The notes beneath the pieces were generated by a model. It ran no database searches, was not told the DNA's origin, and saw only the letters and a program-made list of their open reading frames with translations. This document shows positions 1,368 to 19,142 of a stretch of DNA of 21,013 nt, piece after piece (the first letter of the stretch is position 1; every line of letters starts with the position of its first letter). A program made the position numbers and the translations under genes. This DNA is from a virus. Location: positions 1 through 21,013 of IMG/VR virus record IMGVR_UViG_3300010885_015373; one strand, given 5' to 3'.

Positions 1368-1855
1368 TGTCTAGGGCTGGGTTACGCAGTCAGTTATCTA
1401 GTTACCTGCAAAACGCTACAAGTGTGCCTGATTTGAACCAGGTGTTTACTTCTTTCCCTAAGCAAATAAATTTTCAGGTGAATGCGCAGGCTGGTCAAAA
1501 GTCTAGGGCGGCTGTTGTTATTTTTATTGAACGGGAATCTGAAACCCGTATTGCTTTGGGTGGCGCAACCAGTGGCAAGAAACGCATTGATTATGATGTG
1601 GTGTTGCAGGTGTTCCATCACAGTATGCAAAACAATGCTGAAGATGCAATGGATGATTTAGATGCAACCATTGATGCGTTAAAAGATTACCTGCGTGCAG
1701 ATCATAGGTTTGGTGACACCACGGGTAACATTATTTGGCAGGGTGCTGAACCTGCTATTGATGTTGATTACAGTGAACCGTCTACAAGTGATCGTGGTGC
1801 TACTGAAACTTGGGTGGTTCTTAGGTTTCAGGTTACGCAAATTTACACTGCGTGA
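1367..1855 (+). CDS. Tail terminator-like neck protein
   Basis: The protein is 162 aa. Helix-rich N-terminus, central strands (AAVVIFIERESETRIALGG, KKRIDYDVVLQVFHHS), a helix with DAMDDLDATIDALKDYLRADHRF, and a final strand ETWVVLRFQVTQIYTA. This alpha/beta pattern, the size and the place after the adaptor fit tail terminator/tail completion proteins (lambda gpU / HK97 gp10 neighbourhood). A head-tail stopper is not seen as a separate gene, so either this or a neighbour may do that job. It is the last gene before the terminator at 1863-1907. Confidence 0.5.
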   Translation: MSRAGLRSQLSSYLQNATSVPDLNQVFTSFPKQINFQVNAQAGQKSRAAVVIFIERESETRIALGGATSGKKRIDYDVVLQVFHHSMQNNAEDAMDDLDATIDALKDYLRADHRFGDTTGNIIWQGAEPAIDVDYSEPSTSDRGATETWVVLRFQVTQIYTA

Positions 1856-1862
1856 TCTGATA

Positions 1863-1907
1863 GGCGCAGGGTTGGTACGCCTTCCACCAGCCCTGCGCCC
1901 CTTATTT
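1863..1907 (+). terminator. Strong Rho-independent terminator
   Basis: Arms GGCGCAGGGTTGGT (1863-1876) and ACCAGCCCTGCGCC (1886-1899) pair over 14 bp with one G-U, a 9-nt loop, and a following CTTATTTTCC. This closes the head-neck transcription unit and isolates the cassette that follows. Confidence 0.92.
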
Positions 1908-1908
1908 T

Positions 1909-1925
1909 CCCTTTATTTGTAAGGG
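1909..1925 (+). promoter_or_regulatory. 17-bp repeat, candidate operator (copy 1)
   Basis: The sequence CCCTTTATTTGTAAGGG is nearly the same as 12694-12710, 14382-14398 and the reverse complement of 18812-18828. It ends 22 nt before the -35 of the promoter at 1948. The ends are complementary (CCCTT/AAGGG). Each promoter region of this family carries one such element, which suggests a regulator-binding site. Confidence 0.5.
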
Positions 1926-1927
1926 TA

Positions 1928-2019
1928 AAAAAAGTTTGTAGAAATAGTTGCATGTTTGTTTGTTTTGGGTTTATGATTTAGGTACAAGGTCAGAGTGACC
2001 AGAACAGAAGGGCAAGAAA
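1928..2019 (+). promoter_or_regulatory. Promoter plus 5' hairpin leader (module copy 1)
   Basis: An A-tract (from about 1928), -35 TTGCAT (1948-1953), an 18-nt spacer starting GTTTGTTTG, and -10 TATGAT (1972-1977) predict a start near 1984. The RNA then begins with hairpin GGTCA-GAG-TGACC (1988-2000), followed by the 19-nt leader AGAACAGAAGGGCAAGAAA and the ATG. The same module occurs before the genes at 12597(-), 14272(-), 14497 and 18933, with different hairpin arms that remain complementary. Confidence 0.8.
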
Positions 2020-2361
2020 ATGACAAACAATAACTACGCACTATACGCACAGTTCACCGTAAACAACTCACAGCGCAACTTGGCTGATTCAATTTGTGTA
2101 CCTTTGCATGATGTTGTTGCAGAAGATTTGTATGAAACGACTGATGCAAAAGTTAGCATTATGGGTAGCCACACAAATGGCGGCTTGCTAGTCAGTTTTG
2201 TATTTGATGCAGCCAGCCATGAAGAAGCCATTGCACTTGCAAACACATGGGCAGAAGAATTAAGTTTCGGATCAATGCGCATGTTCTGGCATGAACAAAC
2301 AGATTTTGGTTCACGGGGCGTAAGAATTCTTGATACAGAAAAAACCAAATTGAACGCATAA
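2020..2361 (+). CDS. Unknown protein in an autonomous cassette
   Basis: The protein is 113 aa with no motif I recognise. It is acidic, with a central segment VSIMGSHTNGGLLVSFVFDA and the helix-like EEAIALANTWAEELSF, suggesting a small alpha/beta fold. There is no signal peptide or membrane segment. The gene has its own promoter and hairpin leader and is fenced by terminators on both sides, so it is transcribed separately from the tail genes around it. This arrangement is that of a moron: a gene added between late genes and usually not needed for virion building. The promoter family it shares with the accessory region suggests early or regulated expression. Confidence 0.8.
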   Translation: MTNNNYALYAQFTVNNSQRNLADSICVPLHDVVAEDLYETTDAKVSIMGSHTNGGLLVSFVFDAASHEEAIALANTWAEELSFGSMRMFWHEQTDFGSRGVRILDTEKTKLNA

Positions 2362-12282: not shown

Positions 12283-12597
12283 TTAACCAACTTTTTCAAA
12301 GTAAGTTTCAATTTCATTTTTGTAAACAAAATTTTTGATGCAAGTGTTACCAACGCGCACCCACTCACCTTTGCCCTGTGCTTCAACTTCAGCAACTTTA
12401 TTCAATGGCACGATTTCATCACTCTGCCAAACAAAGAAACAACGGTAGGCGGTGTTATCTGCCATACCTTTGCCGCAATGATGACAAGACTGTAAGCCAT
12501 CTTTTTTTGCTTTAGCGTTATTGCGATCCCAATGCACATGTGCGCCCATGCCGCCACAACTAATAAAACCTTCTGATGTGATTGCTGTAATGTTCAT
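12283..12597 (-). CDS. Cys/His-rich small protein, possibly zinc-binding
   Basis: The 104-aa protein begins MNITAITSEGFISCGGMGAHVHWD. The frame is open upstream, but ATG 12597 is the start that follows the shared hairpin leader exactly as in the other copies. Cys14, His20/22, CHHC (38-41), Cys53 and Cys86 suggest a zinc-bound fold (SCHHCGKGM, YRCFFVW, VRVGNTCIKNF). The family is not known to me. It forms a single-gene unit with its own promoter module and ends at the bidirectional terminator. Confidence 0.75.
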   Translation of the reverse strand: MNITAITSEGFISCGGMGAHVHWDRNNAKAKKDGLQSCHHCGKGMADNTAYRCFFVWQSDEIVPLNKVAEVEAQGKGEWVRVGNTCIKNFVYKNEIETYFEKVG

Positions 12598-12690
12598 TTT
12601 CTTGCCCTTCTGTTCTGCGCACTCTGCGCTGTTAGTACCAGCATAAGACCTAACCAAACAAACATGCAACTTATTTACAAAAGTTTTTTT
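12598..12690 (-). promoter_or_regulatory. Promoter plus 5' hairpin leader (module copy 2)
   Basis: Read on the minus strand: A-tract (12683-12690), -35 TTGCAT (12664-12669), 18-nt spacer starting GTTTGTTTGG, -10 TATGCT (12640-12645), and a start near 12633. The hairpin GCGCA-GAG-TGCGC spans 12617-12629. The 19-nt leader AGAACAGAAGGGCAAGAAA is identical to copy 1, while the hairpin arms are different. Confidence 0.8.
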
Positions 12691-12693
12691 ATT

Positions 12694-12710
12694 CCCTTTA
12701 ATTGCAAGGG
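12694..12710. promoter_or_regulatory. 17-bp repeat, candidate operator (copy 2)
   Basis: CCCTTTAATTGCAAGGG on the plus strand, inverted relative to the promoter it accompanies; 24 nt separate it from the -35. It overlaps the stop codon of the gene at 12698-13033, and its CCCTT/AAGGG arms could also act as a weak terminator for that operon. GGCGTGTCGC, another short repeat, lies 8 nt away at 12718-12727. Confidence 0.5.
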
Positions 12711-13033
12711 TTTTCTTGGCGTGTCGCACATTCACCAGCACCAGCAAAATACGCTGCACCATCAATAAAGTGGTCTAGATCCTGACTAGCCGCAGTGCGT
12801 GCCAACTTCACACCAGCCATACACAACGCAACCTGAAACGCCTGAACTTCAACACCCAACACCACAGACCAAATGCGTGCAATGTTTTCATGGTTCGTTA
12901 CGAAGTCACCAGCCTTACGGTTGCGGTCACCGTAGGTTAGTGCTTTTGCCATGTCTAAGATTTCGCCACGATCCATTGCCACTTCTTGTAGTGCTGTTTC
13001 TAGTTGCTTAAACTGTCCCATCTGTTTCACCAT
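12698..13033 (-). CDS. DUF6378-like phage protein
   Basis: The protein is 111 aa. The segment GDRNRKAGDFVTNHENIARIWSVVLG followed by ALCMAGVKLARTAASQDLDHFIDGAAYFAGAGEC fits the helical DUF6378-type proteins of phages (R-x-Y/AGD...HENIARIW...KLAR...D.FID.AGY). Their biochemical role is not established; a link with nucleotide metabolism has been suggested by similarity to all-alpha pyrophosphatase folds, but no catalytic residues are evident here. The start may be ATG 13033 or ATG 13021; neither has a strong ribosome site, and the gene overlaps the upstream one. It is the last gene of the minus-strand operon. Confidence 0.7.
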   Translation of the reverse strand: MVKQMGQFKQLETALQEVAMDRGEILDMAKALTYGDRNRKAGDFVTNHENIARIWSVVLGVEVQAFQVALCMAGVKLARTAASQDLDHFIDGAAYFAGAGECATRQENPCN

Positions 13034-13580: not shown

Positions 13581-13929
13581 TTTGGCGATTCCTTTTCTGT
13601 GTTTCTGCAGACTTTGCTGCACGGATTTTTCTTTTATGTTTGGCTTCATCTGTTTGACTCATAAACACTTCATGTATTGGGTAAATTGGTGTGGCTTTGA
13701 TTCCGCGTTTGGCACGGATCACGCGCCTATCTTGTGCTGTTGTGCCAGCCCAGATGCCATCTACTTTTACATTTAGTGAATACTCTAAACATGATTTGAA
13801 GATGGGGCAGTTGGCGCAAACTTTGTAGATCATTTGTTTTTGTTTTTCTTCTTGTTCGCGTGAGTCTGGAAAAAATAAATCTACTGGTAGTTCTGCGCAG
13901 GCGGCTTCTGTGAAGTCGGGGCATTTCAT
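13573..13929 (-). CDS. WhiB-like transcription factor (first copy)
   Basis: The protein is 118 aa. Four Cys in WhiB spacing (C11, C38, C41, C47; the last three as CANCPIFKSC) should hold a [4Fe-4S] cluster. The turn GIWAGTT (58-64) stands for the usual G[VI]WGG, with Ala replacing one Gly. A basic tail (RRVIRAKRG, then KHKRKIRAAKSAETQKRNRQ) should bind DNA and is longer than in minimal WhiB proteins. Host WhiB proteins act with the major sigma factor, and a mycobacteriophage WhiB (TM4) is known to interfere with host WhiB2. The role here may be similar (inference). The ATG overlaps the preceding stop by 4 nt. Confidence 0.9.
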   Translation of the reverse strand: MKCPDFTEAACAELPVDLFFPDSREQEEKQKQMIYKVCANCPIFKSCLEYSLNVKVDGIWAGTTAQDRRVIRAKRGIKATPIYPIHEVFMSQTDEAKHKRKIRAAKSAETQKRNRQNA

Positions 13930-14404: not shown

Positions 14405-14496
14405 AAGTTTTTTTCTAAACAAGTTGCATGTTTGTTTTGTTTGTGTGCTAGTCTTGTCTTAACAGTCCAGGGTGGGCAGAACAGAAAGGCAAGACA
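14405..14496 (+). promoter_or_regulatory. Promoter plus 5' hairpin leader (module copy 4)
   Basis: -35 TTGCAT (14424-14429), 19-nt spacer starting GTTTGTTTTG, -10 TAGTCT (14449-14454), start near 14461. Hairpin GTCCA-GGG-TGGGC (14465-14477) has one U-G pair. The leader AGAACAGAAAGGCAAGACA (14478-14496) leads directly to ATG 14497. A T-rich tract replaces the A-tract upstream. Confidence 0.78.
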
Positions 14497-14805
14497 ATGA
14501 CAACAACACTAGACATTTCAGCAACAGACACCGCAAAGATGGTACGCAAAGCAATCAAGACCGCATACCCAACTGCAAAGATTTCTGTAGTTACAGATAA
14601 GTATTCAATGGGTGCTGCAATCAATGTCACCATCCTTACCGAAATGACAAACGAACAGGTTGCAGATGTAACCGACATTGCACGCCAGTTTGAAGGCGCA
14701 ACATTTGATGGCACGATTGATCTTAAAGAATACAAAGTATCTGTGCTTGATGGTCAAGATGTTCGTTTTGGTGCAGATTTTATTTTCACACACAAGGGGT
14801 GGTAA
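14497..14805 (+). CDS. LPD29-domain protein
   Basis: The protein is 102 aa. It has the pattern of the LPD29 domain (large polyvalent protein associated domain 29): DTAKMVRKAIKTAYPTAKISV, then YSMGAAINVTI, VADVTDIARQFEGATFDG and ADFIFTHKGW at the end. The spaced helix, the central strand and 'FEGA.FDG.ID' are diagnostic by eye. LPD29 proteins occur alone and inside large polyvalent proteins of mobile elements; their function is not known. It is the first gene of the rightward region, behind promoter module copy 4. Confidence 0.8.
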   Translation: MTTTLDISATDTAKMVRKAIKTAYPTAKISVVTDKYSMGAAINVTILTEMTNEQVADVTDIARQFEGATFDGTIDLKEYKVSVLDGQDVRFGADFIFTHKGW

Positions 14806-16682: not shown

Positions 16683-17582
16683 ATGAGTATTACAGAAACA
16701 TTGATAAACAAACTGACAGACCAGGACAAGAACAGACCACGCAGTGTGCAAACACAGGTAGGTGTTTCAGAAATCGGTGGGTGCGGTACACGCATTTGGC
16801 ACAAGGTTAATGGCACTGAAGTTACTAACCCTGACACTCTGCGCCTGGCAGCGATTATGGGCACAGCCTTGCACGGCATGATTGAAGAAGTGTTTGAACC
16901 TGATGCACGCTTTAAGGTTGAAACTGAAGTTGCTGTGGGTGACATTCTTGGTCACATTGATTTGATTGATACTGAAACAAACACTATTTGGGATTGGAAA
17001 ACTACCACCAAAAATAGTTTGGCTTATTTCGGATCACGCCAACAAATGTTGCAGGTGCAAATGTATGGCTGGTTGGCTAACCGCAACGGTATCAAGATTG
17101 ACCGTGTGGGTTTGGTTGCCATTGCCCGTGATGGTAATGAGTCAGACATTTTGGAAAAGTCGTGGGCGTATGATGAAGCCTTAGCCCTTGAAGCGGTGAA
17201 CCGATACCACGAAATCAAACAACAGTTTGAACCACCAGCACCTGAAAAAGATGCAAAGTTTTGCGCCAACTACTGCCCATTTTTTGGGGCGTGCACTGGC
17301 ATTGTTGAACCATCACCAACAGATGTTATTGCTAACTTGGAAATTGCTACCCTTGCTGAAGATTACAAAGACATTCAAGCGCAGATTAAAGACCTGACTG
17401 CCAAACAGGATTTCATTAAAGAACAATTGGATGGCACTACTGGTGTTACTGCTACTGGCACTGTGATCAAGTGGGCGCAGGTTGCAGGGCGGCAAAGCAT
17501 TGATGAAGCAGAAGTTGAAAAACTTTTAGGGTTTGTGCCTAAGAAGCAGGGCAACGGTTACAGCCGTTTAACAATTAAGTAG
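16683..17582 (+). CDS. Cas4/RecB-type exonuclease with Fe-S cysteines
   Basis: The protein is 299 aa with ribosome site GAGAAGG. The PD-(D/E)XK nuclease core is visible: GTALH (60-64), GHID (90-93) and D104-W-K106 with T107. Four Cys (C34, and C194/C198/C204 in CANYCPFFGAC) match the [4Fe-4S] cluster of Cas4/AddB-like nucleases. The C-terminal third (about 215-299) is a helical coiled coil and a small basic domain (KKQGNGYSRLTIK). There is no cas1/cas2 or CRISPR array nearby, so it is a stand-alone phage recombination exonuclease, probably working with the Rad52-like protein. Confidence 0.85.
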   Translation: MSITETLINKLTDQDKNRPRSVQTQVGVSEIGGCGTRIWHKVNGTEVTNPDTLRLAAIMGTALHGMIEEVFEPDARFKVETEVAVGDILGHIDLIDTETNTIWDWKTTTKNSLAYFGSRQQMLQVQMYGWLANRNGIKIDRVGLVAIARDGNESDILEKSWAYDEALALEAVNRYHEIKQQFEPPAPEKDAKFCANYCPFFGACTGIVEPSPTDVIANLEIATLAEDYKDIQAQIKDLTAKQDFIKEQLDGTTGVTATGTVIKWAQVAGRQSIDEAEVEKLLGFVPKKQGNGYSRLTIK

Positions 17583-17608: not shown

Positions 17609-17905
17609 GTGACTGGACACCTGCCAAAGATTGCATCACCAAATTTGCCTAACGCTTTGTGTGCCGATAATCGGGTGAACCCTGAATTGTTTTTCGCGGA
17701 TGATTGCCAGCAACCTGATAAGGCTGTGGTGGAACAGGCTAGGGCGATTTGTATTCAATGCCCTGTTCGTGTGCCGTGCCTGCAGTGGGCGTTACAGAAT
17801 GAAAACTTTGGCATGTGGGGTGGACTCACTGCGAATGAACGCAGAGATTTTAAGCGCAGAAAATTGCGCAGACTAAAACATTTAGAAGAATTTGATTTGA
17901 TTTAG
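17609..17905 (+). CDS. WhiB-like transcription factor (second copy)
   Basis: The protein is 98 aa with the full WhiB signature: C18, C48, C51, C57 (spacing x29, x2, x5), the turn GMWGGLT (68-74) and a basic C-terminal helix RRDFKRRKLRRLKH. It is closer to the standard pattern than the copy on the minus strand. The start is GTG 17609; there is no ribosome site upstream. It may redirect host WhiB-sigma factor complexes or control phage promoters. Confidence 0.9.
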   Translation: MTGHLPKIASPNLPNALCADNRVNPELFFADDCQQPDKAVVEQARAICIQCPVRVPCLQWALQNENFGMWGGLTANERRDFKRRKLRRLKHLEEFDLI

Positions 17906-17913
17906 GGGTGACT

Positions 17914-18342
17914 ATGGGCGCAACACCAGAACAACGGGATGCGTACATAGCAACTTTTTTGGAAGCATTGCCTGTTGAATTACGCCCTGACAAAATCACA
18001 ACAACTATAAACAAACATTTGGCTGCAGGGTTTCATAATGGTTGGAAGCCTGGTGTGTTGGCGCGTGAAGTTAGTGCTGGTGTGGGTGGCGCACAGAACC
18101 CTGTGGGGCTACTTGTGCACCGCTTAGGTTTGTTGGCGGTAACTAAACCACTGGTTACACCTACACCGTCTAAGTTTGTGCATGAGTTGCGTGCACCGCA
18201 GTTGCCTGATGATCTGCGTAGTGAACGCAATTTGATTATGCGTAAAGTTATTGCTGGTGATGTGGATGCAGATACGGGTGCAGGTTTGATTGCAGAAATT
18301 TATAGCCGATTTGCTTTAATGCAAGATTCAGATTTAGGATAA
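17914..18342 (+). CDS. Unknown helical protein, actinobacterial regulator-like domain
   Basis: The protein is 142 aa from ATG 17914; GTG 17908 in frame is less likely because AGGGGTG (17904-17910) fits the ATG. The segment INKHLAAGFHNGWKPGVLAREVSAGVGGAQNPVGLLVHRLGLLA resembles a helical segment found at the end of helix-turn-helix or replication-type proteins of Streptomyces (pattern GW.P..L......G..NP...L..RL). No catalytic motif is visible. It follows the WhiB gene by 8 nt, so the two are probably co-transcribed. Confidence 0.65.
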   Translation: MGATPEQRDAYIATFLEALPVELRPDKITTTINKHLAAGFHNGWKPGVLAREVSAGVGGAQNPVGLLVHRLGLLAVTKPLVTPTPSKFVHELRAPQLPDDLRSERNLIMRKVIAGDVDADTGAGLIAEIYSRFALMQDSDLG

Positions 18343-18370
18343 CGGCACATAACTTAATAACCAGTTTTTT

Positions 18371-18533
18371 GTTTGGTCTGATTAAAACTAAACCCGTGAG
18401 ATGTATAAGCCCTAGTGAGATCGGCACAATAGGCAACCAGTTAAATGGTTTACCACCTAGCGTAAGTTTGTTAGGTGTGGGGTATGGAACGCCCATAGCA
18501 TCATAAGAGTAGTGGGCAGTCTTATTAGTATGG
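18371..18533 (+). ncRNA. Candidate structured RNA with pseudoknot in a 222-nt non-coding gap
   Basis: The gap 18343-18564 holds no convincing gene. Possible pairings by eye: P1 GTTTGGT (18371-18377) / ACTAAAC (18387-18393); P2 CCTAGTG (18411-18417) with CAC (18425-18427) and TAGG (18430-18433); P3 AACCA (18435-18439) / TGGTT (18446-18450); P4 CACCTA (18454-18459) / TAGGTG (18472-18477); then GCCCA (18491-18495) / TGGGC (18513-18517) interleaved with ATAAGA (18503-18508) / TCTTAT (18520-18525), an H-type pseudoknot or two exclusive hairpins. The gap ends at the ribosome site GGGGG of the next gene, so it may be a riboregulator of that gene or a separate RNA. No known RNA family is recognised, and no energy calculation was made. 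Confidence 0.5.
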
Positions 18534-18564
18534 CTGTTGAATTCTGGCGAACCTTTGGGGGACT

Positions 18565-18837
18565 ATGAGCAAGCATAAGATTAAGAAGTTACTACTAGAT
18601 GATCTTAAGAAGTCTGGTTACTGTCGCAGTGTGTGGTCTGGTAAGTGTGTGTTGTGTAGTTTTGAAATCAAACACCGTGACCTAATTGTTAAACCTGTTG
18701 GTGATGTTTTGCCGTCTAGGTGGTATCACGCTAAATGTCTTGAAGCCTGGTTGAAGGTTGAAGGTAATCGCAGGGCTGCGGTTGGGCGTGTCGCTGGTGG
18801 TAGGCGTAAAACCCTTGCAAATAAAAGAAAAAAATAG
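18565..18837 (+). CDS. Basic zinc-finger protein
   Basis: The protein is 90 aa. CVLC (about 28-31), then a His-x-x-Cys (RWYHAKCLEAW) gives a C2HC site with the look of a PARP-type zinc finger. N-terminus (SKHKIKKLLLDDLKKSG) and C-terminus (GRVAGGRRKTLANKRKK) are strongly basic, so nucleic acid binding is likely. It starts at ATG 18565 behind GGGGG with 3-nt spacing, directly after the candidate structured RNA. Downstream is a new promoter, so this may be the last gene of its transcript. Confidence 0.7.
   Translation: MSKHKIKKLLLDDLKKSGYCRSVWSGKCVLCSFEIKHRDLIVKPVGDVLPSRWYHAKCLEAWLKVEGNRRAAVGRVAGGRRKTLANKRKK
18812..18828. promoter_or_regulatory. 17-bp repeat, candidate operator (copy 4)
   Basis: The reverse complement reads TCTTTTATTTGCAAGGG, 15 of 17 positions like the consensus. 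It lies inside the end of the zinc-finger gene and 33 nt before the -35 at 18862. GGCGTGTCGC, seen beside two other copies, is at 18785-18794. Confidence 0.45.
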
Positions 18838-18840
18838 TTT

Positions 18841-18932
18841 AAAAAAAGTTTGTCAAAACACTTGCATGTTTGTTTGTTTCTGACTTACAATTGAACTACA
18901 GCGCAGGGTGCGCCAAACAGAAAGGCAAGAAG
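18841..18932 (+). promoter_or_regulatory. Promoter plus 5' hairpin leader (module copy 5)
   Basis: A-tract (18841-18847), -35 TTGCAT (18862-18867), 18-nt spacer GTTTGTTTGTTTCTGACT, -10 TACAAT (18886-18891), start near 18898. Hairpin GCGCA-GGG-TGCGC (18901-18913), then CAAACAGAAAGGCAAGAAG (18914-18932) and ATG 18933. It has the best -10 of the five copies. Confidence 0.82.
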
Positions 18933-19142
18933 ATGTATAAAGTAAGCAAAGCCCGACAGACCAAAACATTAGTTGTTATTTGTGATGGTGAAAATGATGC
19001 ACCATTTATGTTGGTTTGCGATAAGCACAATTTAACTTTAGATTGCGAAACTATTACACAGGCAAAACTATTTGCTTCTTCACCTATTGACTGGTGCGAA
19101 GATTGCGCTACAGAATACTTTGCAAACAAGGCTGGTGCGTAA
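18933..19142 (+). CDS. Small zinc-binding protein
   Basis: The protein is 69 aa from ATG 18933, chosen because it follows the hairpin leader; the frame is open upstream. VCDKHNLTLDC and WCEDCATEYF give four Cys plus one His, similar to actinophage small proteins of the pattern 'C..H ... A..F....P..WC..C'. It is the first gene of a five-gene chain of tiny genes coupled by overlaps. Confidence 0.72.
   Translation: MYKVSKARQTKTLVVICDGENDAPFMLVCDKHNLTLDCETITQAKLFASSPIDWCEDCATEYFANKAGA

Follow-up and report, generated by a model that had tools for sequence, protein, structure and literature searches.

The window analysed here, i.e. the whole stretch of 21,013 nucleotides of IMG/VR virus record IMGVR_UViG_3300010885_015373, contains a 222-nt gap (18343-18564) that starts after the stop codon of ORF 17908-18342 and ends at the ATG at 18565. 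The boundaries given by the first-pass annotation were correct, as was the putative ribosome site that it had noted at the end of the gap. The features of this locus are as follows:

16683-17582: PD-(D/E)XK exonuclease, upstream of the gap
17609-17905: WhiB protein, upstream of the gap
17908-18342 (+): upstream ORF p144, 144 aa
18357-18564 (+): conserved RNA element, sharply bounded at its 5' end and reaching as far as the last base ahead of the start codon
18557-18562 (+): putative ribosome binding site GGGGGA of downstream ORF 18565-18837, proposed from the sequence
18565-18837 (+): downstream ORF (znf), 90-aa basic protein with a CxxC...HxxC, treble-clef or RING-like signature

Protein p144 displayed no Pfam or NCBIfam family above cut-off and no PHROG match; homologues were found in related loci L002, L003, L038, L039 (incomplete) and L049. 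The znf protein had homologues in L002 and L003 (93% and 72% identical, respectively). Its matches to Pfam zf-ANAPC11 and zf-rbx1 were both below cut-off (E 0.009), its AlphaFold model was weak (pLDDT 49.9), and a Foldseek search with this weak model as query gave a best E of only 0.44. The host is likely actinobacterial, because the exonuclease matches lie nearly all in phages of actinobacterial genera: 111 of the 112 records from named phages belonged to phages of Arthrobacter, Mycobacterium, Gordonia, Rhodococcus and Tsukamurella, all below 60% identity. Besides the WhiB domain at 17654-17848, the window displayed a second one at 13723-13911 (-). The intergenic module that follows znf (18808-18938), spotted through matches of one L002 stretch to the window, recurred at 1926-2023 (+), 14411-14500 (+) and 12593-12712 (-), and resembles a repeated promoter with a leader that ends AACAGAAAGGCAAGAAGATG. 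The strongest folding for its G+C in the window was observed at 1801-1932 (+), around the end of ORF 1367-1855, and is perhaps a terminator.

Searching with the znf protein led to two IMG/VR contigs, L002 and L003, both of which have the gap sequence at the equivalent position; the whole comparison rests on these three homologues (window, L002 and L003). DNA identities for the pairs window-L002, window-L003 and L002-L003, respectively, were 96.4, 89.1 and 87.2% for the gap, 90.7, 80.6 and 79.7% for the exonuclease gene, 85.2, 69.7 and 69.0% for the WhiB gene, 81.8, 63.1 and 59.0% for p144, and 94.8, 79.9 and 81.1% for znf. At the DNA level, the gap element thus displayed the highest conservation of the locus among the three sequences, above its flanking genes. 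Identity rose sharply around 18358 and remained high until about 18568, helix P4 (see below) excepted. The element shared 200 of 207 aligned bases with L002 and 186 of 206 with L003, and its last part up to the ATG (18505-18564) was identical at 58 of 60 positions to L002 and likewise to L003. Four-fold sites of the exonuclease gene were 53-71% identical among the three.

Synonymous divergence (dS) of znf was 0.115 between the window and L002 and 0.44 between the window and L003, which is about a quarter to half that of the exonuclease, WhiB and p144 genes (0.41-0.46 and 0.85-2.1, respectively; RusA rows against L003, being out of frame, were left out). Such low values over window positions 18565-18822 suggest either a recent exchange of the segment or constraint on its DNA. 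Since such an exchange would inflate raw identities, znf offers the fairer yardstick: element substitutions amounted to about 3.4% against a znf dS of 0.115 (window-L002) and about 10% against 0.44 (window-L003), i.e. a change rate of roughly a quarter to a third of that at znf synonymous sites.

A stop-free frame was present on the minus strand of the gap in the three sequences. Coding on either strand was rejected because 1- and 2-base indels shift the frame between homologues, and a small upstream ORF (ATG UAU AAG CCC UAG) was discarded since the L003 sequence differs there. Covariance model R1 spans 18357-18532. When 62 sources, i.e. the window plus 61 loci, were searched with Infernal, just the three known copies were recovered, and DNA-pattern searches of viral contigs gave no member beyond L002 and L003. 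Among genome contigs, the strict DNA pattern had no match, and the exonuclease alignment also yielded no member. INPHARED phages displayed no similar DNA at E 1e-5; with E up to 10, weak matches occurred in 21 records, the best 10 of 21 at E 3.

The proposed fold consists of a 5' hairpin, a core and a hairpin competing with part of that core:

18371-18393 (+): 5' hairpin PA, GUUUGGU/ACUAAAC, 7 pairs, invariant in the three sequences, no covariation
18398-18504 (+): five-way-junction core P1-P5, same minimum-energy fold in the three sequences
18400-18404 with 18498-18502 (+): closing helix P1, GAUGY/GCAUC, 5 pairs, one U-G pair becoming C-G in L003
18409-18411/18432-18434 (GCC/GGC) and 18415-18417/18425-18427 (GUG/CAC) (+): P2, loop AGANCGG, 6 pairs, invariant in the three sequences
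18435-18450 (+): P3, AACCA/UGGUU, loop GUUAAA, 5 pairs, invariant in the three sequences
18454-18462 with 18469-18477 (+): P4, three pairs changed on both sides, first among 235 helices (see below)
18480-18483 (GGGU) with 18491-18494 (RCCC) (+): P5, loop AUGGAAC, 4 pairs, one U-G pair becoming U-A in L003
18491-18517 (+): alternative hairpin, incompatible with P1 and P5

Folded alone, the core adopted the identical five-arm structure in the window, L002 and L003, with P1 enclosing P2-P5 and thereby creating the five-way junction. Three of the four successive hairpins drawn in the first-pass annotation correspond to PA, P3 and P4 (the last at 18454-18477, with 8-9 pairs, all kept). The remaining one (18411-18433) had a fourth pair that exists in the window only, leaving 83% of cells paired (a cell being one pair in one sequence); its conserved form is P2, GCC/GGC with GUG/CAC inside. 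Downstream, two interleaved stems had been read as an H-type pseudoknot or as two alternative states. The first stem (18491-18495/18513-18517) has five pairs in the window and L002 but four in L003 (93% of cells paired), excludes P5, and is part of the alternative hairpin. The second one (18503-18508/18520-18525) kept 15 of 18 cells (83%), one pair being lost in two sequences and a different pair in a single one. As this stem is broken in both relatives and the first competes with P5, the pseudoknot was abandoned as a conserved fold. The annotation's whole model, from which P1 is missing, kept 94.3% of cells.

The idea of two states fared better, since hairpin 18491-18517 and P1/P5 are indeed mutually exclusive. 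When the transcript was extended to 18517, the energy model favoured the hairpin in the window (0.99) and L002 (0.96), but P1 instead in L003 (0.95). Alternative states are therefore possible, though in this calculation the preference was not conserved among the three sequences. Segment 18491-18533 displayed a folding z of -2.44.

Comparison of folding energies with shuffled sequences gave different answers for the whole gap and for its core. The full 222 nt folded no better than chance in the window (z -0.30, 73 of 200 shuffles as good), and z was -0.58 in L002 and +0.81 in L003. Core 18398-18504, on the contrary, did better than shuffles in the window, L002 and L003 (z -2.41, -2.40 and -3.01, matched by 3, 5 and 1 of 200 shuffles, respectively), and its RNAalifold consensus energy was better than that of 500 out of 500 column shuffles. 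Its minus strand folded more weakly (z -1.44). Of 1674 segments of 107 nt taken from the two strands, 54 folded equally well or better for their G+C, so that folding energy alone would not pick out the core.

The 35 pairs of the model (core and PA) were formed in 105 of 105 cells, and slid versions of it reached at most 41.3% paired, with zero two-sided changes. The search for covariation in homologous regions revealed compensatory changes in one helix of these three sequences: all three two-sided changes fell in P4. A scan for helices of at least four pairs kept in the three sequences listed 235 of them, with P4 ranking first (three two-sided and four one-sided changes) and the runner-up showing one two-sided change. 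The observed covariation was matched by 43 of 500 letter shuffles, and for P4 alone the probability that random transitions would leave every pair intact was 0.09-0.18. Covariation comes mostly from one helix; 27 of the 35 pairs are invariant and hence uninformative. Between the window and L003, 24 substitutions and 6 gap columns were counted. In paired columns, the 10 changes were all pair-preserving transitions and every pair was kept; unpaired columns displayed 7 transitions together with all 7 transversions and all 6 gaps (P 6e-4 with gaps included, 0.01 when only substitutions are considered).

The "candidate new structured RNA" of the first-pass annotation was thus upheld: the gap had no Rfam match, was conserved above its flanking genes, accumulated indels of non-coding type, and displayed both compensatory changes in P4 and one core fold in the three sequences. 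On these comparisons, it is very probable that the gap holds a genuine structured RNA.

This RNA matches no catalogued RNA family. The annotation had recognised no known class by eye, and the Rfam 15 search of the whole window likewise gave no match at or above gathering score. A permissive search of 18300-18620 returned three sub-threshold matches (SNORD75, SCARNA1 and mir-981), the best of which, to small nucleolar RNA family SNORD75 (19.9 bits against a gathering score of 50), is probably due to chance. Neither the L003 homologue (Rfam) nor the window searched for tRNA and tmRNA genes (ARAGORN) gave any match, and no description of this RNA was found in the literature searched.

Several known systems offer partial likenesses. 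Autogenous translational operators in phage mRNAs are structured leaders bound by the product of the gene that they precede. The gap RNA resembles them in that its structure lies next to a ribosome site and the protein encoded behind it is small, basic and probably nucleic-acid-binding, but at about 210 nt and with a five-way junction it is larger than known short hairpin operators. With bacterial riboswitches it shares a junction of several arms ahead of a ribosome site and a competing hairpin. Unlike them, it matches no Rfam class and was found here in phage contigs only. Of its two exclusive folds, the hairpin was preferred in two sequences and disfavoured in one, and predicted accessibility of the ribosome site differed inconsistently among the three. 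HEARO, or IscB omega RNA, comes to mind because an HNH gene follows the gap RNA in L003. Yet the RNA occurs without HNH in the window and L002, the next gene is the zinc finger in two of the three records, no Rfam match was obtained, and the L003 HNH protein scored 24.4 bits against the IscB model (cut-off 175). GOLLD and ROOL are structured phage RNAs of unknown function as well; according to PMC12286853, GOLLD is often longer than 800 nt, and tRNA islands are often close to either RNA, in contrast to the gap RNA with its approximately 210 nt, its window without tRNA and its lack of an Rfam match.

The RNA and znf occurred together. Model R1 and the znf profile each matched the same two of 22 related records, in addition to the window; neither was found in the other 20. 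Owing to this co-occurrence, the earlier proposal that the zinc-finger protein binds the RNA or is regulated by it appears plausible. The conserved fold lies next to a ribosome site, and znf as its linked gene is present in the three records with the RNA. In L003, an HNH ORF of 170 aa (L003:2492-3001; Pfam HNH, E 3.4e-5) stands between leader and znf, occupies the position right behind the leader and repeats the first six codons of znf (MSKHKI); its arrangement suggests an insertion of the homing type. When P1 was enforced, the invariant CCC at 18393-18395 was among the best predicted partners of a ribosome-site G in the three sequences, with modest probabilities.

Our preferred reading, to which we assign a probability of about 0.5, is that 18357-18564 is a plus-strand, cis-acting leader RNA controlling translation of the small predicted zinc-binding gene. 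It is favoured because conservation reaches the ATG, RNA and znf co-occur, and CCC 18393-18395 is among the best predicted partners of a ribosome-site G. The RNA would be made within an exonuclease-WhiB-p144-zinc-finger transcript, and its fold, or a shift between the junction and hairpin 18491-18517, would set the accessibility of GGGGGA. As a trigger, a protein would be likelier than a small ligand: either the zinc-binding protein itself, acting autogenously, or a different one from phage or host.

What counts against a leader, apart from the small sample of three homologues, the ordinary full-length folding and the predicted switch not shared by L003, is that L038 and L049 display another conserved non-coding stretch directly after their p144 homologue (L038:7651-7860 and L049:726-985). 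No znf homologue was detected in either record by profile search. The two stretches are mutually 63-64% identical over about 147-160 bases (E 6e-5) and begin AACCACA...GTTGTAAAACT..TGCC.ACG. The L038 exonuclease is 89% identical to that of the window. Homology to the gap RNA, suggested by eye from the shared AACCA...GTAAAACT just after p144, was not upheld: no credible covariance-model match was obtained, and 50 of 100 shuffles were as good in profile-profile score. These stretches may be analogous or strongly diverged RNAs. Their standing without a zinc-finger gene makes a non-leader role at the post-p144 site possible. The gap RNA could also be an independent non-coding species that is released from the operon transcript by cleavage and acts in trans, e.g. 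on a host or phage protein that it binds; the link with znf would then reflect operon position only. These stretches and the independent folding of the core agree with this. Conservation, however, continues past the core, across the ribosome site and up to the ATG, a simple consensus scan detected no promoter- or terminator-like sites on either side of the element, and the support from L038 and L049 is weakened by the failed homology tests; we hold a trans-acting RNA to be rather unlikely, if the most serious competitor.

The HNH ORF beside the element in L003 and the reduced dS of znf relative to the exonuclease, WhiB and p144 genes would fit a feature acting at the DNA level, be it segment exchange between phages (perhaps HNH homing with co-conversion of the flanks) or a recombination or protein-binding site. 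Such an explanation is improbable in view of the pattern of changes, which is that of a plus-strand RNA, with pair-preserving transitions in stems and transversions and gaps confined to unpaired positions; moreover, the G-U pairs of P4 are mismatches on the other strand, which folds less well. Finally, a closing stem that carries four arms, of which the third has the length of a variable arm and the last (P5) has four pairs and a 7-nt loop, resembles the topology of class II tRNAs and might point to a degenerate or mimic tRNA-like structure. Against this stand a closing stem of five pairs, a P3 loop of 6 nt and a P5 loop, AUGGAAC, that is not a T loop, together with the negative ARAGORN and Rfam results, so that very little credence can be given to a tRNA origin.

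The cis-acting leader, if true, would represent an RNA family absent from Rfam, in metagenome-only phages probably infecting actinobacteria, and it comes with a concrete secondary-structure model directly testable by chemical probing and reporter assays. At its boldest, and as a long shot, it would define a new class of regulatory RNAs in actinophages, whose cloverleaf-like five-way junction gives way to the competing hairpin and so exposes or hides the ribosome site of a treble-clef protein gene; RNA and protein would move as one cassette (with HNH in one phage), and unrelated or strongly diverged RNAs would fill the slot elsewhere. The genome position after p144 also holds, in other phages, a different conserved non-coding stretch.
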